Below, piece after piece: positions 4,790-63,337 of a stretch of DNA of 64,000 bases. This DNA comes from Comamonadaceae bacterium (GTDB lineage Bacteria > Pseudomonadota > Gammaproteobacteria > Burkholderiales > Burkholderiaceae_C): NCBI GenBank assembly GCA_947447355.1, contig CANFJF010000006.1:1-64000 (forward strand), written 5' to 3'. Each line of letters starts with the position of its first letter. Position 1 is the first letter of the stretch. The notes beneath the pieces were generated by a model. That model had not been told where the DNA came from. It searched no databases and worked only from the letters and a program-made list of their open reading frames with translations. A program made the translations under genes and the position numbers.

Positions 4790-4790
4790 C

Positions 4791-38448: not shown

Positions 38449-38493
38449 TGCGGCCTAGAGTTGAATTTCAATGTGATCAAGAGGAGACATTCC

Positions 38494-39477: not shown

Positions 39478-39487
39478 AGCATCCCTC

Positions 39488-40480: not shown

Positions 40481-40498
40481 TTTCGGTCTTGAGCGTGT

Positions 40499-41440: not shown

Positions 41441-41484
41441 CAGGTATTGGCGTATTAATCAATCAATCAAGAATGGAGACAACC

Positions 41485-42459: not shown

Positions 42460-42506
42460 GCACCGTTACAACCACCGCCACAACCACCGATTTATCAGGA
42501 GCTTCT

Positions 42507-44291: not shown

Positions 44292-44321
44292 TTTGTAGAT
44301 TTAAATTTGGAGTTGCACGAC

Positions 44322-45954: not shown

Positions 45955-48909
45955 ATGAAAACAAATGATTGCGCCGTTGGTGCCGGTATTTTTGAGCCCT
46001 CCACTGATGCGGCTTTGATGCCCATGAGCGAGAACAGCTTGACATCAAAGTCTGAGGAGGCGTTGATCAAAGCCGGTGCGTTGCAAAACGCTATTTTCAA
46101 CAGCGCTAACTTCTCGAGTATTGCGACCGACGCGAACGGCGTGATCCAGATTTTCAACGTTGGTGCTGAGCGGATGCTGGGCTACTTGGCGGCAGATGTG
46201 ATGAATAAAGTCACGCCGGCTGAGATTTCTGATCCGCAAGAGGTGATCACCCGGGCCAGCGCCTTGAGCGCCGAGTTTGAAACGCCGATCACGCCGGGCT
46301 TTGAAGCGCTGGTCTTCAAGGCCTCACGCGGGATTGAAGACATTTACGAGCTGACCTACATCCGCAAAGACGGCAGCCGGTTTCCGGCGGTGGTGTCTGT
46401 CACTGCGCTGCGCGATGACCAAGACGCCATCATTGGCTACCTCTTGATCGGCACGGACAACACCGCTCGCAAGCAAGCGGAAGAAGCACTGCTCAAAGCC
46501 GGAGCCTTGCAAAGCGCTATTTTCAACAGCGCTAACTTCTCCAGTATTGCGACCGATGCGAACGGTGTGATTCAGATTTTCAACGTTGGTGCAGAGCGAA
46601 TGCTGGGCTATTTAGCGGCCGACGTGATGAACAAAATCACGCCGGCCGAGATTTCTGATCCGCAAGAGGTGATCACCCGGGCCAGCGCCTTGAGCGCTGA
46701 GTTTGAGATGCCGATCACGCCAGGCTTTGAAGCGCTGGTGTTCAAAGCCTCACGCGGCATTGAAGACATTTACGAGCTGACCTACATCCGCAAAGACGGC
46801 AGCCGCTTTCCCGCGGTGGTGTCGGTGACGGCTTTGCGCGATGCGCAAGACGCCATCATTGGCTACCTTTTGATTGGCACGGACAACACCGCCCGCAAGC
46901 TGATTGAAGAAGAGCAGAAAAAGCTCGACCAACGCTTGCGTGACCAGCAGTTCTACACGCGCTCGCTGATTGAAGCCAACATTGACGCGATCATGACCAC
47001 AGATCCCGCCGGCATCATCACCGACGTCAACAAGCAAACCGAAGAGCTGACCAACTGCACGCGCGACGAGTTGATTGGTGCCCCCTTTAAAAAGTTCTTC
47101 ACGGAGCCCGACCGAGCCGTAGCAGCCATCAACATGGTGTTGACCGGTAAAAAAATCACCAACTACGAGTTGACCGTGCGCGCCAGAGACGGCAAAGAAA
47201 CCGTGGTGTCTTACAACGCCACCACCTTTTACGACCGCGACCGGGTGTTGCAAGGCGTCTTTGCGGCGGCGCGTGACGTCACCGAAAGCAAGCGCCTTGA
47301 CATGGTCTTGCAGGAAAAAAACATAGAGCTCGAGAGCTCACGTGCCGTGGCCGACAACGCCAACTTAGCCAAGTCTGATTTTCTGTCCAGCATGAGCCAT
47401 GAAATCCGTTCCCCGCTGAATGCCATTTTGGGGCTGGCTTATTTGTTGGAGCAGGCTAATCTGGACATGGACGCCCACAACATGGTGCGCAAGATCAGAG
47501 CTTCAGGGCGAATTTTGTTGAGTTTGATCAGCGACATTTTGGATGTCTCCAAAATTGAAGCAGGCCAGATGATGATTGAGCAAGCGCCTTTCCGGCTGAC
47601 CGATGTGATCGATTCGTTGAGCGTGGTTTTGGGTGTGGCGATTGGTGAGAAAAATATCAAATTGATCATCCATCCGCCGCCGCTGGTGCCAGGCATATAT
47701 ACCTTGTCCGGTGATGCGTTACGGCTCGAGCAGGTGTTGATCAACCTGAGTATCAACGCGATCAAGTTCACCAGCCAAGGCCAAGTCGAGCTGCGTACTG
47801 AACTGGTGTCTCGCGGTGAGGACGAAGTGGTGCTTCGCTTCAGCGTCAGAGACACCGGCATTGGCATTGCGCCTGAGTTGCAGAGCACTGTTTTTTCGGC
47901 CTTCACGCAGGCCGACAGCACGACGACCCGGCGCTTTGGCGGCACGGGCTTGGGTTTGACAATTTGCCGCCAGTTGGTGCAGTTGATGGGCGGGCAAATC
48001 GGCTTGACCAGCGTCTTGGGCAAGGGCAGTGAGTTCTGGTTTTCGGTGCCTCTCAAAACAATAGCCGACAGCGATCAACCACTCGATCAACCCATGCAAA
48101 CCTATGTCTTGAGGGAAAACGCAGTGCCTAACTTGGCGGGTAAATCTTTACAAGGCATACGCGTGCTGGTGGTGGATGACGGTGAGATTAACTGCGAAGT
48201 GGCGCGCCGCATTTTGCACGGGCACGGCGCTGTGGTGTCCCTTGCCAGCAATGGTCAGGAGGCGATTGACTGGTTGGTGATGCACCCCGCAGAGGTCGAC
48301 CTGGTGCTGATGGACGTGCAAATGCCGGTCATGGGCGGCATTGAGGCGACCCGGCTACTGCGGCTGATGCCTGAGTTTGCACACCTGCCTATCGTTGCGT
48401 TGACGGCGGGTGCTTTCAAGTCGCAGCAAGACGCCGCGCATGCGGTGGGCATGACGCACTTCATCAGCAAACCTTTTGACGTGCCGTCCACCATCACGCT
48501 GATTCAAAGGTTGACACGCCAAGCGTTGATCAACGCGGCCAGCCAGCCACTGCCTTTGGCCGTGGTGTGGGCCCCGGATGTGAAGGTGATCAATGTGGCG
48601 GAGGGGCTGAAAATTTGGGCCGACATGCCCTCGTACTTGGATTGGTTAGGCCGCTTTGTCGAGCTCTACGCGGGGGCTGTGCCCCTGATGCAGAGCAGTC
48701 TAGCGGGCAACGACCGCGCGGCGGCCGTGGCCTTGGCCCATAAGCTGGCCGGGGTTGCGGCCAACCTGGCTTTGTCCGACGTTTTCAGGGCGGCTGCCGA
48801 GGTCGAGCTGGCTTTAGGTTTGTCCCGCCGTTCCGAGGTGGCGCTGGCCGAGCTGGCTGCCGCCATGGATTTGGCGGTGACCAACATCCAACGAATGAGC
48901 GCAGCTTGA
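45955..48909 (+). CDS. Hybrid sensor histidine kinase with three PAS domains, receiver and Hpt domain
   Basis: A 984-residue cytoplasmic-looking kinase with no clear membrane segment. Order: PAS1 (34-175), PAS2 (176-317, near copy of PAS1), PAS3 (about 330-446), HisKA with phospho-His482 in SMSHEIRSPLNA, HATPase (N-box around Asn597/Asn601, DTGIGI at 633, GGTGLGL at 662), receiver (about 734-855; Asp787 in LMDVQMP, Lys839) and Hpt with His929 in AHKLAGVAAN. This is a complete BarA/ArcB-style phosphorelay in one chain, but no output response regulator gene is adjacent. The upstream 160 bases are AT-rich and likely carry its promoter. Confidence 0.95.
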   Translation: MKTNDCAVGAGIFEPSTDAALMPMSENSLTSKSEEALIKAGALQNAIFNSANFSSIATDANGVIQIFNVGAERMLGYLAADVMNKVTPAEISDPQEVITRASALSAEFETPITPGFEALVFKASRGIEDIYELTYIRKDGSRFPAVVSVTALRDDQDAIIGYLLIGTDNTARKQAEEALLKAGALQSAIFNSANFSSIATDANGVIQIFNVGAERMLGYLAADVMNKITPAEISDPQEVITRASALSAEFEMPITPGFEALVFKASRGIEDIYELTYIRKDGSRFPAVVSVTALRDAQDAIIGYLLIGTDNTARKLIEEEQKKLDQRLRDQQFYTRSLIEANIDAIMTTDPAGIITDVNKQTEELTNCTRDELIGAPFKKFFTEPDRAVAAINMVLTGKKITNYELTVRARDGKETVVSYNATTFYDRDRVLQGVFAAARDVTESKRLDMVLQEKNIELESSRAVADNANLAKSDFLSSMSHEIRSPLNAILGLAYLLEQANLDMDAHNMVRKIRASGRILLSLISDILDVSKIEAGQMMIEQAPFRLTDVIDSLSVVLGVAIGEKNIKLIIHPPPLVPGIYTLSGDALRLEQVLINLSINAIKFTSQGQVELRTELVSRGEDEVVLRFSVRDTGIGIAPELQSTVFSAFTQADSTTTRRFGGTGLGLTICRQLVQLMGGQIGLTSVLGKGSEFWFSVPLKTIADSDQPLDQPMQTYVLRENAVPNLAGKSLQGIRVLVVDDGEINCEVARRILHGHGAVVSLASNGQEAIDWLVMHPAEVDLVLMDVQMPVMGGIEATRLLRLMPEFAHLPIVALTAGAFKSQQDAAHAVGMTHFISKPFDVPSTITLIQRLTRQALINAASQPLPLAVVWAPDVKVINVAEGLKIWADMPSYLDWLGRFVELYAGAVPLMQSSLAGNDRAAAVALAHKLAGVAANLALSDVFRAAAEVELALGLSRRSEVALAELAAAMDLAVTNIQRMSAA
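46054..46905 (+). repeat. Tandem 426-bp duplication encoding PAS1 and PAS2 of the kinase
   Basis: Two head-to-tail units, 46054-46479 and 46480-46905, encode 142 residues each. The proteins differ at only a handful of positions (for example Ile/Leu at 39/181, Asn/Ser at 45/187, Val/Ile at 86/228, Thr/Met at 110/252, Asp/Ala at 155/297). The DNA differs more, mostly at third codon positions, so the repeat has been kept under protein-level selection or partly homogenised. Confidence 0.93.
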
Positions 48910-48942: not shown

Positions 48943-49644
48943 TCAGTCTGTGTTCCTGCAGAGGATTGGTATGCCGGCCAGAAATGCAGTCACATGCATC
49001 ACGATGACACTGTCAACGGGCACTGACGTCGTGTCCTTGTAAACGTGACGGCGGATCCCTAAGTGAGAGATATTCCCATGTAAAACCCAGCCTATTTCTT
49101 GTCTGAGCGCTGGGTCTGACGGTGGCGTGACGCCAGCGTCGAATGCCGCCTCTTCAGTGATGATCTGAAGCAGATTGCGGACAATCTCTGCGATGTAAGT
49201 GGGCGCGATTTCAACTTCTGCCAACGAAGAGTAGATGAACAGACGCAGCCATCGCCGGGTCAAGATGGCGTCGTAATACTCGCGGTAAAAATTGACCAAA
49301 CGTTTTTGTAACGGCTCTTTCCGGTCGCGCAGTCGAACAAACCATATGGCCTTGAACGGGCCCGCAATCTCCGCCTCGTAAACCGCGCTAATCAGTTCGG
49401 CCTTGCTGGGGAAAACGCTGTAGAGCAGGCGTTGCGATACGCCGCAGGCATCAGCCAGAGCGCGAGTCTGCGCCGTGAGTCCATTTTCTGAAAAGAATTC
49501 GAATGCCTTTTCTAAAATTTGCGCTCGTCGCTCACGGGCAGGCATCCGAGCCGTTGGCTTACGAAGGCTGGTCATGGCTTTCGCTTCTGGCTTGGCTGGG
49601 GTGTCGCGGCGGATTGCCTTCAGCTTGTCTGATTTAGCTTTCAT
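48943..49644 (-). CDS. TetR-family transcriptional regulator of the ABC/molybdenum-hydroxylase block
   Basis: A 233-residue repressor with an unusual basic N-terminal tail of about 45 residues. The TetR HTH is around 35-85 (RRAQILEKAFEFFSENGLTAQTRALADACGVSQRLLYSVFPSKAELISAVY), followed by an all-helical ligand domain. ATG 49644 is taken; a later ATG at 49575 would remove most of the tail and is possible. The gene is divergent from the NIPSNAP gene. A perfect 30-bp palindrome lies between them, and its 20-bp core recurs before the ABC transporter operon, so this protein is the obvious regulator of both. Confidence 0.87.
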   Translation of the reverse strand: MKAKSDKLKAIRRDTPAKPEAKAMTSLRKPTARMPARERRAQILEKAFEFFSENGLTAQTRALADACGVSQRLLYSVFPSKAELISAVYEAEIAGPFKAIWFVRLRDRKEPLQKRLVNFYREYYDAILTRRWLRLFIYSSLAEVEIAPTYIAEIVRNLLQIITEEAAFDAGVTPPSDPALRQEIGWVLHGNISHLGIRRHVYKDTTSVPVDSVIVMHVTAFLAGIPILCRNTD

Positions 49645-49702
49645 GGGCCTGATGATGTGTGGGTGACAGAGTGTAGACACCTGGCATGGATGTGTGGCAA
49701 GA

Positions 49703-49732
49703 TATTTATATCGTCACTTGACGATATAAATA
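49703..49732. promoter_or_regulatory. 30-bp perfect palindrome, proposed TetR operator 1
   Basis: Arms TATTTATATCGTCA (49703-49716) and TGACGATATAAATA (49719-49732) flank CT. The site is 58 bases from the TetR start and 45 bases from the NIPSNAP start, the expected place for autorepression and control of the divergent genes. Its 20-bp core is identical to the site at 51498-51517. Confidence 0.85.
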
Positions 49733-49777
49733 GGCGATTCAAATCGCTATGGGATCAAACCTTGAATTGGAAAACTC

Positions 49778-50089
49778 ATGATCTATGAAATGCGCACTTA
49801 CCAAGTTCAACCTGGAAAAGCCGGTGAATTTTTGAAAATGTATGAAGCCAACGGCTTGCCCATCATCTCGCGGTATGCCCTTTTGGTGGGTTGTTGGATC
49901 AAGGAATCAGGGGTTCTGAATTCAACTGTGTTCATTTGGGCTTATGACGATTTTGGACATCGCACCAGCCAGCGCGCAAAGCTGATGCAAGACGCAGAGT
50001 GGACGGCATTCGTGCCCCAAATGTTGCCATATTTGGTTCATCAAGAAAGCGTTTTCATGAATCCGGCGGCATTTTCCCCACTTCGCTAA
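49778..50089 (+). CDS. NIPSNAP family protein
   Basis: A 103-residue dimeric alpha/beta-barrel (ferredoxin-like) protein. MIYEMRTYQVQPGKAGEFLKMYEANGLPI and the Trp-containing strand TVFIWAYDDFGHRTSQRAKL are typical of bacterial NIPSNAP proteins. Their biochemical role is mostly unknown, though they often accompany catabolic genes. First gene of the plus-strand unit behind operator 1, 15 bases before the serine dehydratase gene, so both are probably expressed together. Confidence 0.85.
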   Translation: MIYEMRTYQVQPGKAGEFLKMYEANGLPIISRYALLVGCWIKESGVLNSTVFIWAYDDFGHRTSQRAKLMQDAEWTAFVPQMLPYLVHQESVFMNPAAFSPLR

Positions 50090-50104
50090 TTCGGGCATCC
50101 GCAA

Positions 50105-51475
50105 ATGCCCGTCAGCGTATTTGACTTGTTCAAGGTTGGCATCGGACCTTCTAGCTCGCACACGGTGGGCCCGATGCGGATCTCCTTGGCTTTTGTGCGT
50201 GCGCTGATCACGCAGCGACTGTTGGAGGCGACGGCGAGCATCGAAGTTCATCTTTACGGCTCGCTGGCTTTGACAGGGCGGGGTCATGCAACAGATCGCG
50301 CGGTGGTGCTTGGTTTGATGGGTTTTGAGCCCGACACCCTGGATGCCAAGCAAGCTGATTTAGCGCAAAGCCAACTGGCGCAAACGAACAACCTGTTGCT
50401 GGCCGGACAGCATGCCATTAGCTTTTCTTCCGTCACACAGATTGTGTTTCATCGCGACAAAACGCTACCAGAGCATCCTAACGGTATGCGTTTAGTCGCC
50501 AGAGATTCCAGCGGAAATTCGACACTGGACAAGACCAGTTTCTCCGTTGGTGGCGGATTTGTGGTGACTGCTGAGCAGATGGCATCGCCGGCCATGGAAG
50601 ATTCGCTCACTTGGCCTTATCCGTATAAGTCTGCGCGTGAGCTCATGGATATGTGCAGCGCAAGTGGTCAAACCATTGCCGCTGTGGCATTGGCTAACGA
50701 AGAAGCCATGCGCACACACGCAGACGTCATCGCAGGACTCGACAAACTGCACCTCACCATGAGGGCTTGCATGAACCGCGGTCTCACCACCGAGGGTGTT
50801 TTGCCGGGCGGGTTAGATGTCAGGCGTCGTGCGCAGTCAATGCACAGCGCATTGCTTGCGCGTGTTCCGGGTCAGGGGCCCTTGCGCGAACTTGACTGGG
50901 TGAATGCATTTGCTGTCGCTGTCAATGAAGAAAATGCCGCTGGCGGACAGGTCGTCACCGCACCGACCAATGGCGCGGCTGGCGTAGTCCCTGCCGTGAT
51001 GCGTTATCACTCACAATTCTGTGGCGGCGTGAATCCAGAGGCTCACCGTACCTTTCTTTTGACGGCTGCTGCAGTTGGCTCCCTTTACAAAGAAAATGCG
51101 TCAATCTCAGGCGCTGAAGTGGGCTGCCAAGGCGAGGTTGGCGTGGCAGCGTCTATGGCTGCTGCGGGTCTCGCTGCTGTTCTGGGAGGGAGTGTCGAGC
51201 AGATTGAAAATGCTGCGGAAATTGCCATGGAACATCATCTGGGTATGACCTGTGATCCCGTTGGTGGCTTGGTGCAGATTCCGTGCATAGAGCGCAACGC
51301 CATGGGTGCCGTAAAAGCCATCAATGCGGCTCATTTGGCGCTTGCCGGTGATGGCCGGCATGTCATTTCGCTGGACCGTGTGATTGAGACCATGCGGCAG
51401 ACAGGTGCAGATATGAGTCATAAGTACAAAGAAACCTCGCTGGGCGGATTGGCGGTCAGTATTGTTGCTTGCTAA
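50105..51475 (+). CDS. sdaA: L-serine ammonia-lyase (4Fe-4S L-serine dehydratase), single chain
   Basis: Deaminates L-serine to pyruvate and ammonia using a 4Fe-4S cluster as Lewis acid. The 456-residue chain has the N-terminal beta domain ([24 protein letters not shown]) and the catalytic alpha domain (about 170-456). The likely cluster ligands are Cys341, Cys383 and Cys394, and the C-terminal residue Cys456 matches the tail-in-mouth cysteine known from Legionella L-serine dehydratase, where the four ligands have the same spacing. Its location behind a TetR operator rather than alone suggests that serine, or a serine-like product, is released by the neighbouring pathway. Confidence 0.95.
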
Positions 51476-51497
51476 TTTTTTTATTCTTCAATTTTTT

Positions 51498-51517
51498 ATA
51501 TCGTCACTTGACGATAT
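51498..51517. promoter_or_regulatory. 20-bp perfect palindrome, proposed TetR operator 2
   Basis: ATATCGTCA (51498-51506), CT, TGACGATAT (51509-51517), the same as the core of the palindrome at 49703-49732. It lies 23 bases after the sdaA stop and 123 bases before the ABC binding-protein gene, in a 165-bp gap that should contain the promoter of the long downstream operon. Confidence 0.85.
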
Positions 51518-51640
51518 GGCTTCAGTTAAAGAATAATAAAACCACGGTCGGGTTCGGAGCATTTGCTCACTTATCTGCGTACCGGTGGATGCGGTGAAGC
51601 TCAGGCTGTACCGCGGTTTCCCATGCATGGAGCGTGACGA

Positions 51641-52966
51641 ATGACTGATATCTTGACCAACGATGCATCCCGTCGTGATTTTCTGAAGATGACCGCCGCC
51701 GCCGGGCTGGCTGGTTCGGGCGCACTGGCGCTGGATGTGTCTGCGCAGTCAGCTCCGATTAACTTCTATGCATGGTCGGCAGCGGTCGATTTGGTGAAAA
51801 GTCACATCACCGCGTTTGAAACCACCACCAAGCTCAAAGTCAACTACAACAACGCACCATGGGCTCAGTACCGTGAAGCGATGGTCACCAAATTCGTGGG
51901 CAAAGCGCCATTGGATGTGCTGTGGGTGTCGGACAGTTGGTTGCCCGAGTGGGCTGAAGCCGGATGGATTGCTCCCATTGACGGCTTTCCTCAGCTCACC
52001 AAGTACAACGCCGAGACAGATGACTTCTGCCTCCAGTCCATGCGCTACAAGGGCAAGCAGTACGGCTTGACTTACTACAGCGACTACATGGCTTTCTTTT
52101 ACGACGACCAATTGCTCAAAAAAGCGGGCATCAAAGCGCCGCCCGCAACTTGGAGTGAACTCACCACGCAATGTCTGGCCATCAAAAAGGCGGGGTTGTC
52201 GGAGTACCCGATGATGTTGTCGATGGCTCGTGAAAGCTGGCTGATCGAGTTTCTCAGCGCCTTGGTCTTCTCCAATGGCGGGCGTTTCACGGATGACAGC
52301 GGCGTTTCCGTCATGGCTGATCCGAAACGAGGTGCTGCACAGGCCATGCAATGGGTGGTAGATGCGGTCAACAAGCACAAGATCATTTCGCCGGCTTGCG
52401 TTGAAACGGGTGAACTGAATGGCTTGAAGGCCTTTGGTGCGGGCAATCACGCATTCGCTTTGCTCAGCCGCTACCGGATTCGCACTTTGAACGATCCTAA
52501 ACAGTCGGCCATTGCCGGCCGCGTGAAGCAGGCACTGATGCCGGCAGGGCCTGGCGGTTCACACGCTACCGTGGGCTGGATGCGCTTTCATGGCATGACG
52601 ACCCAAGCTGCTGCAGACAAAGGGCGCGCCGCCAATGCCGCTAAGCTGATCGAGTGGTTCGGCGGAAAGGCCGGCACCCAGTACCAGTTTCAGAAGATGC
52701 TATTTGCGGACTTGGGCTCAGGCTTTGGCGTCAAGGGGCTGTTCAAAGATCCGGACATTCAAGAGAGCTACAAAAAATACGCTGACATCGCCATGTTCGA
52801 AAAGCAGCAGCTACTGGCCCGCAAGAAGGACGTGATCACCCCATGGTTCGGCGAGTGGGACGAAGTCAACAGCACGGCTTGGCAATCGGCTGTGCTCGGC
52901 AAATCAACGGTCGCAGCGGCACTGCAAAAATCGTCTGATTCTTGGAACGCCCTGCGCAAGTCTTGA
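51641..52966 (+). CDS. ABC transporter substrate-binding protein, carbohydrate-uptake (CUT1) type, Tat signal
   Basis: A 441-residue periplasmic receptor of the maltose/glycerol-3-phosphate binding-protein fold. The N-terminus has a twin-arginine motif in SRRDFLKMTAAAGLAGSGALALDVSAQS, so export in folded form is likely. Further features are FETTTKLKVNYNNAPWAQYREAMVTKFVGKAPLDVLWV and YYSDYMAFFYDDQLLKKAGIKAPPATWSEL, typical of CUT1 receptors. It is the first gene of the importer (receptor, two permeases, ATPase). The cargo need not be a sugar, since the operon continues with molybdenum hydroxylase and amidohydrolase genes. Confidence 0.9.
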   Translation: MTDILTNDASRRDFLKMTAAAGLAGSGALALDVSAQSAPINFYAWSAAVDLVKSHITAFETTTKLKVNYNNAPWAQYREAMVTKFVGKAPLDVLWVSDSWLPEWAEAGWIAPIDGFPQLTKYNAETDDFCLQSMRYKGKQYGLTYYSDYMAFFYDDQLLKKAGIKAPPATWSELTTQCLAIKKAGLSEYPMMLSMARESWLIEFLSALVFSNGGRFTDDSGVSVMADPKRGAAQAMQWVVDAVNKHKIISPACVETGELNGLKAFGAGNHAFALLSRYRIRTLNDPKQSAIAGRVKQALMPAGPGGSHATVGWMRFHGMTTQAAADKGRAANAAKLIEWFGGKAGTQYQFQKMLFADLGSGFGVKGLFKDPDIQESYKKYADIAMFEKQQLLARKKDVITPWFGEWDEVNSTAWQSAVLGKSTVAAALQKSSDSWNALRKS

Positions 52967-53028
52967 GCTTATGACCCTGAGGTGGCTTGGCATCGCGCCA
53001 GGCCCCTCGCTTTTCCGAGAGCCTTCTG

Positions 53029-53946
53029 ATGAAAACCCTCAAGCCGCCCAAGCGGCGCTGGTTGCCCCTGCCCAGCAGTGCCTACGACCAGCGCAGCGCG
53101 ATGCTATTTCTCGCGCCCATGATGCTGGTGCTGTCAATCGTGGCAGTGTTCCCGGTGTTGTACTCGTTCTGGATCAGCTTGCACGACCTCAAGCTCACGC
53201 GTCCCAACCGCGTGCCGTTTGTCTGGTTCGACAACTACGTGAAGATTTTTTCTGACGCCTTATTTTGGGAGTCCGTGGCTCGAACCGTCAGCTTCACCGT
53301 CATGTCTGTGTTGGCTGTGATGGTCATCGCGACCCTGATGGCGATGTTGCTGAATGAAGACTTTCGCGGCCGTCGAATTTTGTCGGCCATCTTGCTGGTG
53401 CCTTGGGCCATTCCTTACGTCGCCAACGGGTTGATGTGGAAATGGATTTACGACTCAGGCTATGGCGCGCTCAACGGTTTGCTGATGCAATTGGGTTTCA
53501 TCGACAAGTACATCGTCATGCTGGGAGACACAGACAAAACCATGGGGCTGATCACCAATGCTTTTGTCTGGAAAGAAGTGCCGTTGGCCACCATTTTATT
53601 GCTGGTCACTCTCAAGTCGATTCGGGCTGACCTCTACAGCGCAGCCAAGGTGGATGGCGCGAACGCCTGGCAGCGCTTTGTTCACATCACCTTGCCGCAG
53701 TTGGTCCCCGGCTTTGCGCTGGTGATGATTTATGAATCGATGATGGCGATTCGCCACTTCGATCTGTTCTTCATCCTGACCGAAGGGGGTCCTGCGGACG
53801 CCTCGCACGTGGTGGCTTGGCAGGTCTATGTCGAGACCTTCCGCAAGCTGGCTTTTGGTACGGGGGCTGCGCTGGCTTACATCATGGCGGTAGCGACTTT
53901 CCTGCTGGCGTATTTCGTGATCCGTAGCACGAGTAAAAAGCTTTGA
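53029..53946 (+). CDS. ABC transporter permease, MalF/UgpA type
   Basis: A 305-residue inner-membrane permease with about six helices. The EAA loop that contacts the ATPase is SAAKVDGANAWQRFVHITLPQLVPGF (about 206-231). The N-terminal helix MLFLAPMMLVLSIVAVFPVLYSFWISLHDLKL is typical for CUT1 systems. ATG 53029 is preferred over an upstream ATG because the residues before it are unlike the family. It follows the receptor gene after 62 bases. Confidence 0.92.
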   Translation: MKTLKPPKRRWLPLPSSAYDQRSAMLFLAPMMLVLSIVAVFPVLYSFWISLHDLKLTRPNRVPFVWFDNYVKIFSDALFWESVARTVSFTVMSVLAVMVIATLMAMLLNEDFRGRRILSAILLVPWAIPYVANGLMWKWIYDSGYGALNGLLMQLGFIDKYIVMLGDTDKTMGLITNAFVWKEVPLATILLLVTLKSIRADLYSAAKVDGANAWQRFVHITLPQLVPGFALVMIYESMMAIRHFDLFFILTEGGPADASHVVAWQVYVETFRKLAFGTGAALAYIMAVATFLLAYFVIRSTSKKL

Positions 53947-53974: not shown

Positions 53975-54883
53975 ATGACATCCTTTCTACCCGGGCGACG
54001 CGCGCTCCTCTTTTTTGGCTCCATGCTGTTTGCACTGTATGTGCTTTCGCCCATTGCTTGGTTGGTGTCTTCGTCCTTTCAGTCCGAGGCCGAGATCACA
54101 TCGGTACCGCCACACTGGATTCCAGACCATCCCACCTGGGACAACTTCTCTGCGATCTTTAAGAGCAGCAATGAGGTGGTGACTTACGAGAACCGCAAGC
54201 AAGGTGACACTGCCACCGGCGGCTTTATTCCATCGACAGCAGCCAACCTGCTGCCTTCCATGAAGAACAGCTTTTTGGTGGCTCTGGCGGTTGTGGTGCT
54301 CAATCTGCTGGTCAGCGTGCCTGCGGCTTATGCCCTGGCCAAGATTCGATTCATCGGACGCACCTCGTCGATTTACTTCATGCTCAGCACGCGGGTGATT
54401 CCGGACATTGCGCTGGTGGTCCCATTCTTTTTGTTTGTTCAGAAGTTGGGCCTGATGGACAACTTATGGTCGCTGATCATCACGTACCTGGCGATCACCG
54501 TGCCCTTTAGCATTTTCATTCTCACGGGTTACTTTGAGTCGCTACCCGATGAACTGGACAAGGCTGCGCGCGTTGACGGCTGCTCGCGTCTGCAAACATT
54601 GTTGCTGGTGTACCTGCCGTTGGCGGTGCCTTCGTTGGTGGCGGTGGTGCTGTTCACCTTTCTGACAAGCTGGAACGAGTTTTTGCTGGCGCTGATGTTC
54701 ACTCAGACGCCCGCCTCACAGACGATGCCGATTGTCGTGGCGTCTTTCACCTCCGACTTCAATATCAGTTTTTCTTTCATCAATGCCGCCGGGGTCATGG
54801 CCATCGTGCCCCCGGTTCTTATCGCGATCGTTTTCGAGCGCTACATCGTTTCTGGCCTGACAGCCGGTGCCGTCAAGGGCTAA
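53975..54883 (+). CDS. ABC transporter permease, MalG/UgpE type
   Basis: A 302-residue second permease subunit with six predicted helices. The start LLFFGSMLFALYVLSPIAWLVSSSFQSEAEI and the EAA loop KAARVDGCSRLQTLLLVYLPLAVPSLVAV (about 195-222) are clear. A hydrophilic insertion around residues 65-85 (ENRKQGDTATGG) lies in the first periplasmic loop. It pairs with the upstream permease to form the translocation channel. Confidence 0.93.
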   Translation: MTSFLPGRRALLFFGSMLFALYVLSPIAWLVSSSFQSEAEITSVPPHWIPDHPTWDNFSAIFKSSNEVVTYENRKQGDTATGGFIPSTAANLLPSMKNSFLVALAVVVLNLLVSVPAAYALAKIRFIGRTSSIYFMLSTRVIPDIALVVPFFLFVQKLGLMDNLWSLIITYLAITVPFSIFILTGYFESLPDELDKAARVDGCSRLQTLLLVYLPLAVPSLVAVVLFTFLTSWNEFLLALMFTQTPASQTMPIVVASFTSDFNISFSFINAAGVMAIVPPVLIAIVFERYIVSGLTAGAVKG

Positions 54884-54904: not shown

Positions 54905-56005
54905 GTGGCCAGAATCAAGTTCGAAGCTGTCGGCAAAAAATATCCCAATGGCTTCACGGCATTGGACAATCTCAACTTGGACATTGGGGACAAAGAGTTT
55001 TTGGTCCTGTTGGGTCCGTCGGGCTGCGGTAAGTCGACCACACTCAACATGATTGCCGGTCTGGAAGACGTGACCGACGGCAATCTGTTTTTCGACGACG
55101 TGGTGATGAACACCGTGCCGCCTCATAAGCGCGACGTGGCCATGGTGTTTCAGAGTTATGCGCTGTACCCGCACAAATCTGTCTACGAGAACATCGCCTT
55201 TGGGCTGAAGATGCGCAAGTTTCCCAAAGACGAGATTGACCTGCGGGTGCGCGACGCTGCACGTCGCCTGGAAATCGAGCCTTTGCTTGACCGCCGTCCC
55301 GATCAGCTCTCGGGCGGTCAACGTCAACGTGTGGCGTTGGGCCGCGCGATGGTGCGAAAGCCACAGGTTTTTCTGATGGACGAACCGCTGTCCAATCTGG
55401 ATGCTGCGCTGCGCATTTCGATGCGCGCAGAGATCAAACAACTGCACCAGGCGATGCAAACGACTTTTGTGTACGTGACGCACGACCAGGCCGAAGCACT
55501 GACTTTGGCTGACCGCATTGTCGTGATGAAAAGCGGCGTTGTTCAGCAAATCGGCGTGCCTGACGAGATTTATGAGCGCCCGCGCAACATGTTTGTCGCC
55601 TCCTTTTTGGGCAATCCTCCGATCAACTTTCTGGAAGGTCAGTTGTCCCTTCGTGACAACCGACTAGGCTTTGAACGTGGCTCACTGCGTGTCGAACTTT
55701 TACCCGAGATGGCGGCTAAGTTGAACGGTCAGAACGGCCGTGATGTTGTGCTTGGACTGCGGGCGGAAGATGTGGTTGAAAGTGAAGCCCCTGAGATGGG
55801 CGCTTCGCTGACCGGTCGTGTCGCGTCGGTGTTGCCTGTCGGCTCAGATCAGTTTCTAGACATGGACTTGGACGGTGCACGGCTGTTTCTTCGTTTGGGG
55901 AAAGAGTGCCGTTACCGCGAAGGCGACACGGCAACGTTGGGCATCAACCTGAACCGTCTTCACTTGTTCGACAAGGCAAGCACGCAAAGCATTCTTTGGT
56001 CTTGA
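54905..56005 (+). CDS. ABC transporter ATP-binding protein, MalK/UgpC type
   Basis: A 366-residue ATPase that energises the importer. Walker A is GPSGCGKST (about 38-46), the signature LSGGQ is at 135-139 and Walker B DEP starts at Asp159. The C-terminal third (about 240-366) is a TOBE/MOP-type regulatory domain with EIYERPRNMFVASFLGNPPINFLEG and GLRAEDV. Starts with GTG behind AGGAG. It is immediately followed by the molybdenum hydroxylase genes (12-base gap), tying transport to catabolism. Confidence 0.95.
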   Translation: MARIKFEAVGKKYPNGFTALDNLNLDIGDKEFLVLLGPSGCGKSTTLNMIAGLEDVTDGNLFFDDVVMNTVPPHKRDVAMVFQSYALYPHKSVYENIAFGLKMRKFPKDEIDLRVRDAARRLEIEPLLDRRPDQLSGGQRQRVALGRAMVRKPQVFLMDEPLSNLDAALRISMRAEIKQLHQAMQTTFVYVTHDQAEALTLADRIVVMKSGVVQQIGVPDEIYERPRNMFVASFLGNPPINFLEGQLSLRDNRLGFERGSLRVELLPEMAAKLNGQNGRDVVLGLRAEDVVESEAPEMGASLTGRVASVLPVGSDQFLDMDLDGARLFLRLGKECRYREGDTATLGINLNRLHLFDKASTQSILWS

Positions 56006-56893: not shown

Positions 56894-57384
56894 GCGACGA
56901 GCAAGCTATCACTCTGACGGTCAACGGGGCCAACCTGACGTTTCAAGCGGAGCCGCGCAAGTTGCTCTCAGATGCCTTGCGTGAGGATTGCCATCTGACG
57001 GGAACGCACATTGGTTGCGAGCATGGTGTCTGCGGTGCCTGCACGGTGCTGGTCGATGGCAGACCAACGCGCTCATGCCTGACCTTTGCGGTGCAAATGG
57101 AGGGGCATGAGGTCACCACCATTGAAGCTGTCGGAACGCCGCAAAAATTGTCGATCTTGCAGCAAGCTTTGCACGAATGCCATGGGCTGCAGTGCGGCTT
57201 TTGCACGCCGGGCATTGTGATGACTTTCGAGGCTTACCTGAAAGAAAATCCAGACCCCAGCGAAGCGCAAATCCGCGAGACTCTTTCGGGTAACTTGTGC
57301 CGTTGCACGGGCTACCAGAACATTGTGAAAGCCATTGCGCTGGCGGCAAGCCGGATGCGGGAAGCAACACACCATGCCGGCTGA
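56890..57384 (+). CDS. Molybdenum hydroxylase 2Fe-2S subunit (CoxS-like), cluster 2
   Basis: A 164-residue iron-sulfur subunit. Plant-type cluster ligands are Cys43, Cys48, Cys51 and Cys63 (GCEHGVCGACTV); the second cluster uses Cys102 and Cys105 (CGFCTPG) and Cys137 and Cys139 (LCRCTGY). All are conserved. The ATG shares ATGA with the stop of the FAD-subunit gene, and the end overlaps the large-subunit start by 11 bases, so the three subunits are translated in strict coupling. Confidence 0.94.
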   Translation: MSDEQAITLTVNGANLTFQAEPRKLLSDALREDCHLTGTHIGCEHGVCGACTVLVDGRPTRSCLTFAVQMEGHEVTTIEAVGTPQKLSILQQALHECHGLQCGFCTPGIVMTFEAYLKENPDPSEAQIRETLSGNLCRCTGYQNIVKAIALAASRMREATHHAG

Positions 57385-59755
57385 GACCTTTCGCCACATC
57401 GGCATGCCGCATCCGCGCAAGGAAGATGCCCGGTTGGTGACAGGGCGTGGCCGGTACATTGACGACATCGTCGTGCCGCAAGCCTTGCACGCCTGTTTTG
57501 TGCGCTCGCCGCATGCCCATGCACGCATCACCAGCATCAACACGGCCGAAGCGCTGTTGATGCCAGGGGTGGTCGCTGTGTACACCGGCCGTGACCTGGC
57601 TCAGTGGACGGCGAAGCAACGCATGGCACCCCCCATCGACGGTTTACGTGCCATGGAGATGGACACCCTGCCGATTGACAAGGTGCGTTTTCAAGGCGAC
57701 CCGGTCGCCTGTGTGATTGCGACCAATCGTTACTTGGCCGAAGACGCTGTTGAATGTGTCGATGTGAGTTGGGACGTACTGCCCGCTGTGACCTCTATGA
57801 CGCAGGCCCTGAGTCCCGATGCACCGTGCGTGGATGACGCGCTGCCTGACAACCTGTTGTCTCATCAGCATGCCGTGCATGGTGATCCAGACACCGCTAT
57901 GGCCACCGCACACCGCGTCGTTGAGTCCACCTTTTCGCAGCACCGGCAGACGCATTTGCCGATCGAGACGCGTGGCTGTATTGCGGACTGGGACACCGGT
58001 CGTGAGCATCTGAATTTTCATGTTGGAACCCAAGTTCCGCACCCTTACCGCACCACCTTGGCAGCGCGCTTGCAGTTGGCTGAATCGCAGGTGACCGTCA
58101 TGTCGCCTGATGTGGGCGGCGGCTTTGGACAGAAGATCGCGCTGTACCGGGAAGAGCTGACAGTCGCTGCTGCATCGATTCAACTGGGCCGACCCGTGCG
58201 CTGGCGCGAAGACCGGATGGAGAACCTGCTGGCGTCTTCTCAGGCTCGGGAGGATTATTGCCGCACCCGTGTGGCCGTCGACCATACAGGCAGGGTGCTC
58301 GCACTTGAGTTAGAAATCACGGAAGACTTTGGCGCCTACAGTTTCTACCCCGGCAACTACTTGGCGCGCGTGGTGGCCATGATCATCACCGGGCCCTATC
58401 GAATTAAGAATTACGCCTATGACGTGAAGGTGGTGTTGACCAACAAGGTTGGCAATGGACCCATGCGTGCACCCATGGCGGTGACCAGCTGGGTCATGGA
58501 CGGCACCTTGGACGCTGTGGCAAGAGAACTTGCGCTTGACCCGATGGCGGTCCGCCGGGTCAACATGCTGCGCCCTGACGAATTGCCTTTCACCATGGCC
58601 ACCGGCGAAGTACTGGCCGACGTCACCCCTAGCGCCACCATGGAGGCGGTGCTGTCCGCACTCGACTACACGGCGCTGCGTCAGCGCCAGCAACTGGCTC
58701 GGGCTCAAGGCCGCTGGCTCGGCATTGGGCTCTGCAATGTGGTGGAGTCGACGACCTATGGGTCCAAGTTCTACAAATCAGCTGGGATTGCCGGCTCGGG
58801 CCACGAGGCGGCTTGGATCCGTATTGAGCCCTCGGGATGGGTCAATGCCGCCGTGGGCTTAGGGGCAACAGGGCAAGGTTATGAAACCTCTCTGGCCAAT
58901 GCTGTCGCCGAAGGTCTGGGTGTTGCGCCGTCAAAAGTTCGCCTGAACTTAGGCCATACCGATATTGCACCCTACGGCATGGGCAGTCGGGGTGCGCGTG
59001 GCGGGACTGCTGGCGGTGGCACCCTTTATTTGTGCGCGCAACAGGCCCGGGATGCTGTACTGAAAATAGCCGCCTACACGTTGGGACTTGCCGATGGGGT
59101 GACATTGCGAATGGTCGAAGGTCGTGTGCAGCAACGGCTTGGCGAGGCCTGGACAGACACCCGTCTGGCACTTGAAGACATCGCTCGCATCGCCTATCTC
59201 GACCCGATGACTCTGCCGCCTGGTATGAATCCAGGGCTTGAATTCCACTTGACTTACGAGCCGCCGCCCATGACTTATTCGAACGCTTGCCACGCCTGTG
59301 TGGTCGAGGTTGATGCTGCCACGGGTGCGGTCAAGATTGAGCGTTATGTGGCGGCAGAAGATTGCGGCACGGTCCTCAGCCCGGTGGTGGTCGAAGGCCA
59401 GCAACACGGAGCGATCGCGATGGGTTTGTCGGGCTCCTTGTTCGAGCATATGGAGTACGACGCGGCAACGGGCCAGAACTTATCGGGCACGTTGGCCGAT
59501 TACCTCGTCGCCACCGCGCATGAAATTCCGCACATGGAACTCATCGCTATGCACACGCCCAACTCGGCCACACCCGCCGGCATCAAAGGCATGGCCGAGG
59601 GCGGCGTGATGGGCTCGATCGGCGCGCTCACCAACGCTGTCAACGATGCTCTGTCACATTTGGGTGTCACGGTGAACCAACAACCCCTGACACCGGTGTA
59701 TTTACGCAGGCTCATGCGTCAGGCTCAACTACCAACTCAAGAGGCCCCTCAATGA
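57374..59755 (+). CDS. Molybdenum hydroxylase large subunit (CoxL/XDH-like), cluster 2
   Basis: A 793-residue molybdopterin-binding subunit. The hammerhead domain starts HIGMPHPRKEDARLVTGRGRYIDDI. Cofactor loop GGGFGQK at 248-254. The loop that carries AYRCSFR in true CO dehydrogenases instead reads GNGPMRAPM (360-368), so CO is not the substrate. The catalytic Glu is most likely Glu742 in KGMAEGGVMGS. Hydroxylation of a heteroaromatic ring or aldehyde-type carbon is the usual chemistry. Start ATG 57374 overlaps the small-subunit end. The substrate is probably delivered by the ABC importer encoded just upstream. Confidence 0.9.
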   Translation: MPAETFRHIGMPHPRKEDARLVTGRGRYIDDIVVPQALHACFVRSPHAHARITSINTAEALLMPGVVAVYTGRDLAQWTAKQRMAPPIDGLRAMEMDTLPIDKVRFQGDPVACVIATNRYLAEDAVECVDVSWDVLPAVTSMTQALSPDAPCVDDALPDNLLSHQHAVHGDPDTAMATAHRVVESTFSQHRQTHLPIETRGCIADWDTGREHLNFHVGTQVPHPYRTTLAARLQLAESQVTVMSPDVGGGFGQKIALYREELTVAAASIQLGRPVRWREDRMENLLASSQAREDYCRTRVAVDHTGRVLALELEITEDFGAYSFYPGNYLARVVAMIITGPYRIKNYAYDVKVVLTNKVGNGPMRAPMAVTSWVMDGTLDAVARELALDPMAVRRVNMLRPDELPFTMATGEVLADVTPSATMEAVLSALDYTALRQRQQLARAQGRWLGIGLCNVVESTTYGSKFYKSAGIAGSGHEAAWIRIEPSGWVNAAVGLGATGQGYETSLANAVAEGLGVAPSKVRLNLGHTDIAPYGMGSRGARGGTAGGGTLYLCAQQARDAVLKIAAYTLGLADGVTLRMVEGRVQQRLGEAWTDTRLALEDIARIAYLDPMTLPPGMNPGLEFHLTYEPPPMTYSNACHACVVEVDAATGAVKIERYVAAEDCGTVLSPVVVEGQQHGAIAMGLSGSLFEHMEYDAATGQNLSGTLADYLVATAHEIPHMELIAMHTPNSATPAGIKGMAEGGVMGSIGALTNAVNDALSHLGVTVNQQPLTPVYLRRLMRQAQLPTQEAPQ

Positions 59756-60636
59756 ACGACATCTCTTCAAAATCTCGTATTGGATTCATCGGCCTCGGCA
59801 TCATGGGCCAGCACATGGCGGCTCACTTGCTGGCCGCTGGCTATCCGCTGGCCGTTTACAACCGCAGTCCAGACAAAGCCGCCGCACTGGTTGCCAAAGG
59901 AGCCGTGGCCTGCGCTAACCCGGCCCAAGTGGCGCAGCAGTCTGACGTGATCATCACCATGGTCGGCTACCCCAGCGATGTTGAACAGGTCTGGCTGGGG
60001 GCTGAGGGCGTCATCGCCCATGCACGCCATGCGCTTTTGATCGACATGACAACGTCCAGCCCGGCACTGGCCAAACGATTGGCCGAAGCGTCTGCAAAGG
60101 CCGGCCATCAGGCGATTGACGCGCCGGTCTCCGGCGGAGATGTGGGCGCACGCGACGCCAAACTGTCCATCATGGTTGGCGGAGAGGCATCGGCTTTCGA
60201 CAGGGCGCTGCCCATCCTTCAGTGCATGGGGGCCAACATCGTTCACATGGGTGGTGCGGGTGCGGGTCAGCACACCAAGATGAGTAACCAGATCGTCATC
60301 GCCTCCACCATCATGGGCGTGTGCGAAGGTCTGGCTTATGCCAAAGGCGCCGGCTTGGATTCGACGGCGCTGTTGCAGTGCATCGGTGGCGGTGCTGCGG
60401 GTGGCTTTCAACTCAACGTGATGGGTGCGCGAATCGCCAAGGGGGATTTCGCGCCGGGCTTTTTCATTGAGCACTTCCTCAAAGACTTGGGCATTGCGCT
60501 GGCTGAAGCCGAGAGCATGGGTATCGATCTGCCCGGTGCATCGCTGGCCCGCAAACTCTACAACGACATGGCAGACAAGGGTCGGGGACGCTTGGGAACT
60601 CAGGCCTTGTTCCAGCTTTACATGGCAGGGGTCTGA
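59752..60636 (+). CDS. 3-hydroxyisobutyrate dehydrogenase-family NAD(P)+ oxidoreductase
   Basis: A 294-residue beta-hydroxyacid dehydrogenase with the Rossmann motif GFIGLGIMGQHMAAHLLAAGY, the substrate loop DAPVSGGDVGA and the catalytic Lys in GAGQHTKMSNQIVIA. It is a clear paralogue of GarR at 27488, but the operon gives it another role: oxidation or reduction of a hydroxy acid or semialdehyde in the cluster-2 pathway. ATGA overlap with the large subunit gene indicates tight co-expression. Confidence 0.9.
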   Translation: MNDISSKSRIGFIGLGIMGQHMAAHLLAAGYPLAVYNRSPDKAAALVAKGAVACANPAQVAQQSDVIITMVGYPSDVEQVWLGAEGVIAHARHALLIDMTTSSPALAKRLAEASAKAGHQAIDAPVSGGDVGARDAKLSIMVGGEASAFDRALPILQCMGANIVHMGGAGAGQHTKMSNQIVIASTIMGVCEGLAYAKGAGLDSTALLQCIGGGAAGGFQLNVMGARIAKGDFAPGFFIEHFLKDLGIALAEAESMGIDLPGASLARKLYNDMADKGRGRLGTQALFQLYMAGV

Positions 60637-60638
60637 GC

Positions 60639-61271
60639 ATGGAATTCAGTGGCGAATACCGTTTGCCCGTGGGGCAACAGCGGGTGTGGGAAGCGCTCAA
60701 CGACCCTGCCGTGCTGCAGGCGAGTATTGCCGGCTGCAAACAACTGGACAAGCTGTCTGACACTGAGTTCAGCGCCGTCGTCACGAGCAAGGTCGGGCCT
60801 ATATCGGTCACCTTTCGGGGTGCCGTTGAGCTGAGTGATTTGGATGCGCCCCATGGTTACACGTTGACAGGGCGAGGGCAGGGAGGCGCGGCAGGATTCG
60901 CGAGGATGACCGCTCGGATCTCGCTTGAAAAAACGGGTGACGATGAAACGCTGCTGCGTTACACCGCCGAGGCTGAAATCGGCGGCAAACTGGCCAGTGT
61001 TGGAAGTCGGTTGGTACAGAGTGTTGCCAAGAAAAGCGCGGACGATTTCTTTGCAGCTTTTTCACGGCAGTTGACGGGTCAATCCAGCCCAGCGGGTGCT
61101 GTGCCTGAAGTCTTGTCTTCAAATGAAAAGAAGCCATTTTTAGCCAGCTCAGGAGTTGCCCTTATCCCGGGTGGTGGTGGTCTGGGTGCACCGGTGCCGG
61201 CGTGGCTGGTCGTCTTTGGAACCGGTCTGGGCGCAGCGCTCGGATATTGCCTTGCCCTGCTGGTACGCTGA
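60639..61271 (+). CDS. coxG: CoxG-family SRPBCC protein with C-terminal membrane anchor
   Basis: A 210-residue protein, start two bases after the previous stop. The N-terminal SRPBCC domain (1-150; MEFSGEYRLPVGQQRVWEALNDPAVLQASIAGC) is the CoxG signature, and a single C-terminal helix (about 188-208, WLVVFGTGLGAALGYCLALLV) anchors it. In the CO dehydrogenase system CoxG helps to recruit the enzyme to the inner membrane. Here it presumably links this molybdenum hydroxylase to the respiratory chain, so electrons would go to quinone rather than NAD+. Confidence 0.88.
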   Translation: MEFSGEYRLPVGQQRVWEALNDPAVLQASIAGCKQLDKLSDTEFSAVVTSKVGPISVTFRGAVELSDLDAPHGYTLTGRGQGGAAGFARMTARISLEKTGDDETLLRYTAEAEIGGKLASVGSRLVQSVAKKSADDFFAAFSRQLTGQSSPAGAVPEVLSSNEKKPFLASSGVALIPGGGGLGAPVPAWLVVFGTGLGAALGYCLALLVR

Positions 61272-61303
61272 ATAATGGAGTTGAAAAGGAAAGCGGGTTC
61301 ACC

Positions 61304-62506
61304 ATGAAACTGATTGACAGTATCGTTACCGAAGCGTCGCAGATGGCCAGCATCCGCCGGGATATTCATGCGCACCCGGAGCTGTTTTTTGACGAGCGAC
61401 GTACCGCCGATCTTGTTGCGGATCGATTGACCGCTTGGGGAATTCCGATTCACCGGGGCTTGGCGACCACCGGTGTGGTGGGCATCGTCCACGGTCGCGA
61501 TGGCGGCGCCTGTGGTCGCGCCATCGGATTGCGAGCGGACATGGATGCCTTACCGCTACAAGAACTCAACACCTTCGCGCATGCCAGCCAACACGCTGGA
61601 AAAATGCATGCCTGCGGACACGATGGGCACACAGCCATGCTGCTTGCTGCGGCAAAACATCTTTCCACCGCTCGAGATTTCGACGGCACCGTTTACCTGA
61701 TTTTTCAACCGGCGGAAGAAGATGGCGGCGGTGCCCGGGTGATGATCGAGCAGGGACTTTTTGAACGCTTTCCGATGCAGGCGGTGTTCGGCATGCACAA
61801 CTGGCCCGGCGCGCCGGTGGGCACCTTTGCTGTCAGCGCTGGACCTGTCATGGCTTCGTCCAACGACTTTCGCATCACCATCCGGGGCAAGGGCAGCCAT
61901 GCCGCCATGCCCAACACGGGCATCGATCCGGTGCCCATCGCCTGCCAGTTGGTGCAAGGTTTTCAGACCATCATCAGCCGCAACAAAAAACCCACTGACG
62001 GCGGTGTGATTTCGGTCACCATGATTCATGCTGGAGAAGCGACCAACGTGGTGCCGGACGCCTGCGTGTTGCAAGGCACGGTCAGAACCTTCACCCCCGA
62101 GCTGCTCGACATGATCGAGATGCGCATGAAAACGGTGGCCGAGCACACTTGTGCAGCTTTTGAGGCAAGCTGCGAATTTGAATTTCGCCGCAAGTACCCG
62201 TCCACCATCAACAGCCCGGCCGAAGCCGATTTTGCACGCAAGGTCATGACAGAGATCGTTGGCGCCAATCAGGTGTCGATGCAGCATCCCACCATGGCCT
62301 CGGAAGACTTTTCTTTCATGCTGCAGGTCATGCCGGGGGCGTATGTTTTCATCTCCAATGGTGATGGGCAGCACCGCGAGATGGGGCACGGCGACGGGCC
62401 GTGCGTGCTCCACAACCCGAGCTATGACTTCAACGATGATTTGATCCCATTGGGTGCCACGTTCTGGTCACGTCTCGCACAGTCATGGCTTGAAGAAAAG
62501 TCCTGA
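61304..62506 (+). CDS. M20-family amidohydrolase (M20D, hippurate-hydrolase/N-acyl-amino-acid type)
   Basis: A 400-residue metal-dependent hydrolase that cleaves N-acyl-amino acids or similar amides. Motifs: HAHPELFFDE, ADMDALPLQE (Asp79, Asp81), MHACGHDGHTAML (Cys104, His106, the M20D-type ligands), FQPAEEDGGGA (Glu138/Glu139) and GMHNWPG, with MASEDFSFM near the C-terminus. The lid/dimerisation domain is around 185-295. ATG 61304 is preferred; the frame is open 100 bases further upstream inside coxG. It fits a pathway that releases an amino acid, and L-serine dehydratase is encoded under the same proposed regulator. Confidence 0.9.
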   Translation: MKLIDSIVTEASQMASIRRDIHAHPELFFDERRTADLVADRLTAWGIPIHRGLATTGVVGIVHGRDGGACGRAIGLRADMDALPLQELNTFAHASQHAGKMHACGHDGHTAMLLAAAKHLSTARDFDGTVYLIFQPAEEDGGGARVMIEQGLFERFPMQAVFGMHNWPGAPVGTFAVSAGPVMASSNDFRITIRGKGSHAAMPNTGIDPVPIACQLVQGFQTIISRNKKPTDGGVISVTMIHAGEATNVVPDACVLQGTVRTFTPELLDMIEMRMKTVAEHTCAAFEASCEFEFRRKYPSTINSPAEADFARKVMTEIVGANQVSMQHPTMASEDFSFMLQVMPGAYVFISNGDGQHREMGHGDGPCVLHNPSYDFNDDLIPLGATFWSRLAQSWLEEKS

Positions 62507-62509
62507 ACG

Positions 62510-63337
62510 ATGTCGCACCCAACGCTAAGCCCGTCCCATTTTGTCGACGCTTTGGCTGAACTCGAACGCAGCCTGACCTGGCAGTCCTTGGATGTCGATG
62601 GCCACGTTTGGCGCTGGCTCGATACCGGTGGATCTGGGCCGACAGCGCTGTTGTTGCCGGGCTCCGTGGGGGATGGCGGTATGTTTGTCACGACTTTGTC
62701 TGCCTTGCGTTCGCGCGCGCGCCTGGTGGCGGTGACCTACCCGGCATTGTCAGAACCCGAGCGTTTGGCAGATGGTCTGGCCCACGTGATGAGGCATCTT
62801 GACCTCGCGTCCGCCGTGGTTGTCGGGTCTTCCTTTGCGGCGTATTGGGCACAGTTCTTTGCCTTGCGTCACCCCGAACGGGTTCGTGCACTTGTTTTGG
62901 GCAACGGCTTGGTGGACAGCCATGACTTGTCGTATGACCCGCTTTTCGTGCCTGCTTATCTCGAGTCTGTGAGTCCGAAGGAATTGCATGCCGCCTGGAT
63001 AGCACGCGTTGGTAACTCGCCTATTTCGCCTTTGCAGCAGCTGCAGAGCTTGATGCTGGCTGATCGACAAACGTCAGAGAATCTGCATGCTCGCTTGTTA
63101 GGGGTCGGCAGAGCCAAGGTCTGCCCGCCACTGTCTTTGCCGATGGCCGTCGTCACGGTGCTGGATTGCGATGACGACCCTCTCATGCCGCCTGCTGTGC
63201 GTGCCAGGTTGCGGTCTCGCTACTTAGGCGCGAGACATATCAGTCTGCCCACCGGTGGCCATTACCCCCATCTTTTGAACCCACAGGCCTATCAAGACCT
63301 TTTGAGTGAAGTGCTCTCTATCGCAGAAGCTGCTTAG
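62510..63337 (+). CDS. Alpha/beta hydrolase
   Basis: A 275-residue alpha/beta-hydrolase-fold protein. The oxyanion region is LLPGSVGDGGMFV, the nucleophile elbow GSSFA (106-110, Ser108) has Ala in place of the last Gly of GxSxG, the acid is probably in LDCDDDPLMP and the catalytic His in PTGGHYPHLLNP. It begins three bases after the amidohydrolase stop and is the last gene of the operon. It would cleave an ester, thioester or C-C bond of a pathway intermediate; the substrate is unknown. Confidence 0.85.
   Translation: MSHPTLSPSHFVDALAELERSLTWQSLDVDGHVWRWLDTGGSGPTALLLPGSVGDGGMFVTTLSALRSRARLVAVTYPALSEPERLADGLAHVMRHLDLASAVVVGSSFAAYWAQFFALRHPERVRALVLGNGLVDSHDLSYDPLFVPAYLESVSPKELHAAWIARVGNSPISPLQQLQSLMLADRQTSENLHARLLGVGRAKVCPPLSLPMAVVTVLDCDDDPLMPPAVRARLRSRYLGARHISLPTGGHYPHLLNPQAYQDLLSEVLSIAEAA

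Follow-up and report, generated by a model that had tools for sequence, protein, structure and literature searches.

Repressors of the TetR, AcrR and RutR type are characterized by a TetR_N helix-turn-helix domain, a fold of nine helices and a short inverted repeat beside the regulator gene. At the RNA level, the ompA and papA leaders carry 5'-terminal stem-loops that stabilise the mRNA (works cited in PMC3997798), and the NMT1-motif xanthine riboswitch and the Moco riboswitch candidate are leader RNAs tied to purine oxidation or molybdenum-cofactor genes (PMC7373994 and PMC2408646). The 64,000-nucleotide stretch of DNA analysed here (the window) encodes, at 48943..49644 on the minus strand, a TetR-family regulator that shares these protein traits. 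Its open reading frame spans 48943-49680 with an alternative GTG start at 49680, but the ATG at 49644, which gives 233 aa, is the likelier start since most homologues align from about the Met at this position. The TetR_N domain is recognised by Pfam at E 9e-11 (PF00440, 41.8 bits, cut-off 24), and the AlphaFold2 model has the nine helices of the family fold (mean pLDDT 79.0, residues 1-30 below 50). No NCBIfam equivalog scores above its cut-off for this protein (the best, FasR, reaches 36.8 bits versus 330), and among sequences with a solved structure even the nearest are remote (OpaR, E 6e-12; HapR, E 2e-10).

The plus-strand genes past tetR begin with a NIPSNAP-domain protein (49778..50089, 103 aa, Pfam PF07978 E 4e-25) and sdaA, encoding an L-serine ammonia-lyase (50105..51475, TIGR00720, 651.5 bits). 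The latter is not a constant part of the locus and is missing at the corresponding place in many related loci; in the relative L039, sdaA (4381-5558) matches in two pieces that cover different stretches and appears broken. The gene run that follows is opened by an ABC solute-binding protein with a Tat signal (51641..52966; PF01547, TIGR01409) and continues with two ABC permeases (52987-53946 and 53975-54883, PF00528), an ABC ATPase of the UgpC/MalK type (54905..56005, NF008653, 446.8 bits versus a cut-off of 432), the FAD (56018-56893), 2Fe-2S (56890-57384) and Mo (57335-59755) subunits of a molybdenum hydroxylase, assigned by profile matches, and, at 59752..63337, a hydroxyacid dehydrogenase (HIBADH / tartronate-semialdehyde-reductase type), a CoxG-like protein, an M20 amidohydrolase and an alpha/beta hydrolase, all on the plus strand. 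Judged by gene order and spacing, the run from the solute-binding protein through the alpha/beta hydrolase is apparently co-transcribed as one ~12-kb operon.

The first-pass annotation had pointed to one 20-mer in two places of this locus, and ATATCGTCACTTGACGATAT is indeed exact at 49708-49727 and 51498-51517. Both predicted operators lie where they were said to lie: copy 1 (49703..49732, a 30-bp inverted repeat around the 20-mer, no strand assigned) is between tetR and the NIPSNAP gene, of which the latter is the first gene past it, and copy 2 (51498..51517, no strand assigned) is between sdaA and the solute-binding-protein gene, ahead of the ABC/molybdenum-hydroxylase gene run. They had been described as perfect palindromes; the inverted repeats are real, with arms of 14 bp in copy 1 and 9 bp in copy 2 around a 2-bp centre, but the central CT is not self-pairing and neither repeat is strictly perfect. 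The conserved core, TCGTCACTTGACGA, occupies 49711-49724 in copy 1 and 51501-51514 in copy 2; this sequence is absent from the PMC literature searched, a collection that leaves subscription journals mostly uncovered. Copy 2 lacks the outer arms, as first noted, but these arms do not hold up as a part of the operator in copy 1, as they are not conserved across relatives: pairing past the 20-mer is unbroken only in the window and, over a shorter length, in the near relative L033. These arms are probably incidental. Copy 2 was also considered as a transcription terminator and rejected, given its 2-nt loop, the absence of a T run behind it and a terminator scan of 51400-51700 that did not return it.

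In this assembly the 20-mer is confined to these two places. Shuffling the window 100 times gave no chance match at up to three mismatches, and a scan of the assembly (3,954,648 bases in 179 contigs, 93.83% complete, i.e. with a few percent unseen) with ATATCGTCANNTGACGATAT, allowing up to three mismatches and a free centre, returned only the two known places. Exact copies of the 14-bp core TCGTCANNTGACGA are likewise confined to them, and the many unrelated copies that would argue against a local operator are absent from the organism's own assembly. At one mismatch or fewer the short core occurs at 8 places in all, versus 9 for a reversed control, which is the background level.

We compared 24 distinct loci, window included, whose shared ancestry means that the counts below are not independent events. 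Fifteen relatives came from a pattern-seeded TetR scan of a collection that represents each of 84,980 species by a single genome (TetR identity to the window's protein 48-95%), three from plasmids of Burkholderia cenocepacia (NZ_CP091013), Ciceribacter thiooxidans (NZ_CP059897) and Paraburkholderia sp. FT54 (NZ_CP134198) (51-56%), and five from a genus scan by the solute-binding protein alone, in which 8 of 87 genomes matched (the window's own, two already known and the five new ones). All five loci found by this route, i.e. without use of the regulator, have both sites. The tetR-side core TCGTCA-N2-TGACGA, beside tetR or its operon, is present in 23/24 loci (exact in 16, one mismatch in 6 and two in 1), the sole exception being L046, in which no copy is recognisable at this position; loss of the site where the TetR is kept, which the first-pass annotation had named as evidence against a common operator, is thus nearly absent. 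An inverted repeat conserved beside the regulator's own gene is a further trait shared with the TetR, AcrR and RutR type. The operon-side core is found in 23/23 loci with an uptake operon (18 exact, 5 with one mismatch), of which 22 have the window's solute-binding protein and one (L047) has a different gene. Four loci (L045, L046, L075 and L077) have the transport operon on the downstream side of tetR, and there too an operator precedes it. In the alphaproteobacterium Bauldia (L047), whose TetR is 48% identical, the core stands before an M20-tetR gene pair as well as before a different uptake gene, an ABC binding protein by eye (sites at 4730 and 6976 of that locus), an arrangement hinting that the substrate of the M20 protein may be linked to the inducer. 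A further, partial tetR copy was seen in one family genome (G109, C302:7096-7377, L032); it covers residues 150-243 at 84% identity, lies at a contig edge and may be an assembly duplicate.

The Paraburkholderia plasmid locus (L076) has lost the uptake operon and retains an orphan tetR among insertion sequences, with a one-mismatch copy before tetR. The sole exact core on this 514-kb plasmid is ~8.6 kb from tetR and 0.4 kb upstream of a gene annotated as a TonB receptor; here the exact core and a one-mismatch copy (19223 and 19351) both precede the TonB-dependent receptor gene, possibly reflecting a re-use of the regulator.

The recognition helix of the protein follows the same pattern as the operator. 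All 24 orthologous TetRs carry SQRL[LI]Y (SQRLLY in the window), a motif found in none of 31 paralogues (27 from the family-genome search, three from an order-level search and one from a plasmid), whose helices read, e.g., ITQPLLY, VTHALLY or ISQPLLY and never SQRL, and the loci of these 31 paralogues have no core at one mismatch or fewer in the DNA searched (mostly ~1.5 kb on each side). The order-level search, over 399 genomes, gave the window and the three paralogues with no further orthologous locus, and no further locus was found in viral contigs. A scan of 15 further TetR-bearing genomes (~64 Mb) gave 25 exact cores, every one of them in the TetR locus, versus 1 for the reversed control and about 3.8 expected by chance anywhere at equal base use. 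A later genome set, counted without two genomes that repeat earlier ones, gave 9 exact cores, of which 7 are in the TetR locus, 1 is that of the Paraburkholderia plasmid and 1 is off-locus (G860, C377); one genome of this set (G815) has no exact core. Among 299 family genomes, the 16-bp core occurs six times in four genomes, and four of the copies are at the TetR loci of G000 and G109, the only two of the 299 with an orthologous TetR and the only two of 399 family genomes with the solute-binding protein. The other two genomes (G218 and G288) have one exact 16-bp core each, and neither is among those matching the TetR at E 1e-20.

These counts bear on the reading in which the palindromes belong to another regulator encoded elsewhere, with tetR as an incidental neighbour. 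Such a reading can draw on the three off-locus exact cores (G860, G218 and G288), but the number of off-locus cores is about equal to the chance expectation, the four family genomes with the 16-bp core include the only two that have an orthologous TetR, the core accompanies tetR across Betaproteobacteria and two Alphaproteobacteria (L047 and L077), and paralogues with other recognition helices are without it; we regard the involvement of another regulator as highly improbable. The earlier proposal of a common operator for the neighbouring TetR is, in turn, supported by the conservation of the site and its co-occurrence with the recognition helix, from which we infer binding.

The position of copy 2 suggests how the operon may be controlled. 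A consensus scan of 51400-51700 gave a single promoter-like match (shuffles average 0.4), a predicted sigma-70 promoter at 51508..51537 on the plus strand, with the -35 hexamer TTGACG at 51508-51513, an 18-bp spacer and the -10 hexamer AATAAT at 51532-51537. The -35 hexamer is contained in the right half of operator copy 2. TTGACG reads in the operon direction in 23/23 operon-side sites and in the NIPSNAP direction in 5/23 tetR-side sites (Fisher P 2e-8, calculated on 5/22 with L076 not yet included and with shared ancestry ignored). Its fixation at the operon copy implies that the centre is constrained by something besides the palindrome, which -35 function would explain. Among the 18 loci with the window's layout (i.e. 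tetR / NIPSNAP / optional sdaA / transport operon), 14 have an exact AATAAT at a spacing of 17-18 bp; the four loci with the other layout, like L047, match the -10 less well, at 2 to 4 of 6 positions. As operator copy 2 contains the -35, repression by promoter occlusion is likely. A promoter scan around copy 1 gave no match, so that autoregulation is suggested by the position of the operator only.

Some TetR-family proteins act as activators, and the regulator might bind both sites and mainly activate, or do both. The existence of such members speaks for this option, but the -35 hexamer itself lies under the operator, as would suit repression, and we consider a mainly activating or dual role very unlikely. 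We thus favour a local TetR regulon, consisting of a repressor and two operators, the operon copy being in the -35 region, with control over a catabolic cluster; on the sequence evidence this is highly probable. The TetR from 48943-49644 would bind TCGTCA-N2-TGACGA twice within its own locus, at one promoter in the gap between tetR and NIPSNAP(-sdaA) and at another ahead of the 12-kb ABC transporter / molybdenum-hydroxylase operon, where the repressor on copy 2 would block RNA polymerase at the -35. Release of the repressor would presumably be brought about by a substrate or intermediate of the pathway, and the resulting operon transcript would begin with a conserved hairpin. A regulon of this type is ordinary in kind, and its support is unusually good for a prediction made from sequence only. 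It gives an uncharacterised catabolic island (transporter and molybdenum hydroxylase) a candidate local regulator, operator and promoter, makes the substrate of the island searchable through whatever releases the repressor, and offers the pairing of the SQRL helix with the TCGTCA-N2-TGACGA operator as a handle for spotting the regulator in other genomes. In the PMC literature, a search with NIPSNAP and TetR as whole words returned nothing related, and broader searches gave nothing on this locus among the matches listed.

Less expected is the leader hairpin. It is predicted at 51546..51583 (plus strand), pairs GGU with ACC and CGGGU with AUCUG in its stems, with CGU bulged out at 51578-51580, and begins about where transcription of the operon should start. 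We compared the 18 distinct leaders of the window's layout, in 17 of which the common stem starts 7-8 nt past the -10. The minimum-energy folds of 17 leaders agree on one main hairpin with variable outer pairs, of which L037 keeps the inner stem only. L044 shares the window's layout, yet its leader gives no match to the hairpin model and folds differently; it is excluded from the alignments (A3 and A6) and included in the folding-energy set. The base of the stem, GGUCG...UG-YGN-RCC, is nearly fixed in 12 leaders and contains an invariant G-U pair, and over the 8 basal pairs 99% of the pairing is kept, with 7 double-change cells. Of 5000 tree simulations on these 12 rows, 8 reach the observed covariation score, 125 the paired cells and 133 the double changes (1, 15 and 44, respectively, after a correction of the L035 register), which amounts to moderate evidence of covariation. 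The leaders of L083-L087, the five loci found by way of the solute-binding protein, match the model incompletely and are largely different in sequence, yet attain an equivalent hairpin fold.

Inclusion of these leaders gives a 17-row alignment with both-side changes in 10/10 pairs (25 cells) and with 90.5% of cells paired, a level reached in 0/500 shuffles; since the structure was predicted from that alignment itself, these values are somewhat biased in its favour. In tree simulations of the 17 rows, 0/5000 runs reach the observed paired cells, double changes or covariation score, and 1/5000 reaches the number of double-change pairs. Sliding the partners by 1-3 columns lowers pairing in this alignment to 33-53%. 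Taken one by one, the leaders give weak folding-energy evidence (z -1.4 to +0.1 for 8 stretches of 58-63 nt; z -1.28, P 0.10, for the 41-nt hairpin segment of the window). The signal comes from the leaders as a set and from covariation: over 15 leaders, the 41-nt segment has a mean z of -2.4, compared with -0.03 to +0.25 from offset 20 onward. The leader thus has the conserved, covarying structure expected of a cis-regulatory RNA.

An inverted repeat directly downstream of a promoter is in the usual place for a repressor, and the leader repeat could be read as the DNA site of a second regulator. Of the 153 paired cells, 46 are G-U and would not pair in DNA, and we therefore read the hairpin as RNA; that paired cells, double changes and covariation lie above all 5000 simulations and that arm and loop lengths vary also argue against a DNA site, which we consider a very improbable explanation. 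The leader hairpin appears to be conserved as an RNA structure outside the described RNA families. No Rfam 15 family matches the leader, in searches of 49600-51700 (E<=10) and of the leaders of L041, L043, L084 and L087 (E<=1); the NMT1-motif and Moco families, comparable as leader RNAs tied to purine oxidation or molybdenum-cofactor genes, are absent among the matches in the same searches. In 399 family genomes, both strong hairpin matches precede this operon, so that in this set the hairpin appears tied to one operon and not to several unrelated ones. The 21 weak matches (E 3e-4 to 0.01) are probably chance matches in coding sequence, as 20 of them lie wholly within stop-free frames of 150 codons or longer, a type of frame that also arises by chance in G+C-rich DNA. 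The leaders of the other layout (L045, L046, L075 and L077) have no model match and, by eye, no comparable fold, and the hairpin therefore appears to be lineage-specific.

With regard to its role, the hairpin is predicted to open a long operon transcript, as the ompA and papA stem-loops open theirs, and may be a 5'-terminal stem that guards the mRNA against decay without ligand or partner. The near-constant distance of the common stem from the -10, the retention of the fold in L083-L087 where the sequence is largely replaced, and the known precedents of such stabilising stem-loops in bacterial mRNAs (works cited in PMC3997798) are all consistent with this role. A difference from the ompA and papA type is the strong sequence constraint at the stem base of the 12 leaders, which is more than stability by itself should require, and two columns before the loop are conserved (G in at least 90% and C in 17/17). 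We give mRNA stabilisation a probability of about one half, which makes it the most likely role of the hairpin, whereas a regulatory RNA would be the more interesting one. In its fullest form, the latter would mean stacked controls at one promoter, where a TetR operator doubling as the -35 is combined with a new class of 5'-end hairpin (GGUCG ... UG-YGN-RCC at its best conserved) that tunes the 12-kb operon by sensing a pathway metabolite or by recruiting RNA polymerase or a protein; this combination seems rather unlikely. The covarying leader hairpin presents a testable RNA element located directly on a repressible promoter.

Finally, two features of the window lie on the far side of tetR. 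A sensor-kinase-like protein at 45955-48909 contains two near-identical tandem segments (AIFNSANFSSIATDANGVIQIFNVGAERMLGYLAADVMNK is repeated), PAS-like by eye, that are apparently the result of a recent internal duplication. Further upstream, at 37132-45794, lies a distinct group of genes that encodes a LigXa-like Rieske oxygenase, an aldehyde dehydrogenase and a TPP enzyme, together with binding proteins that look tricarboxylate-type by eye.
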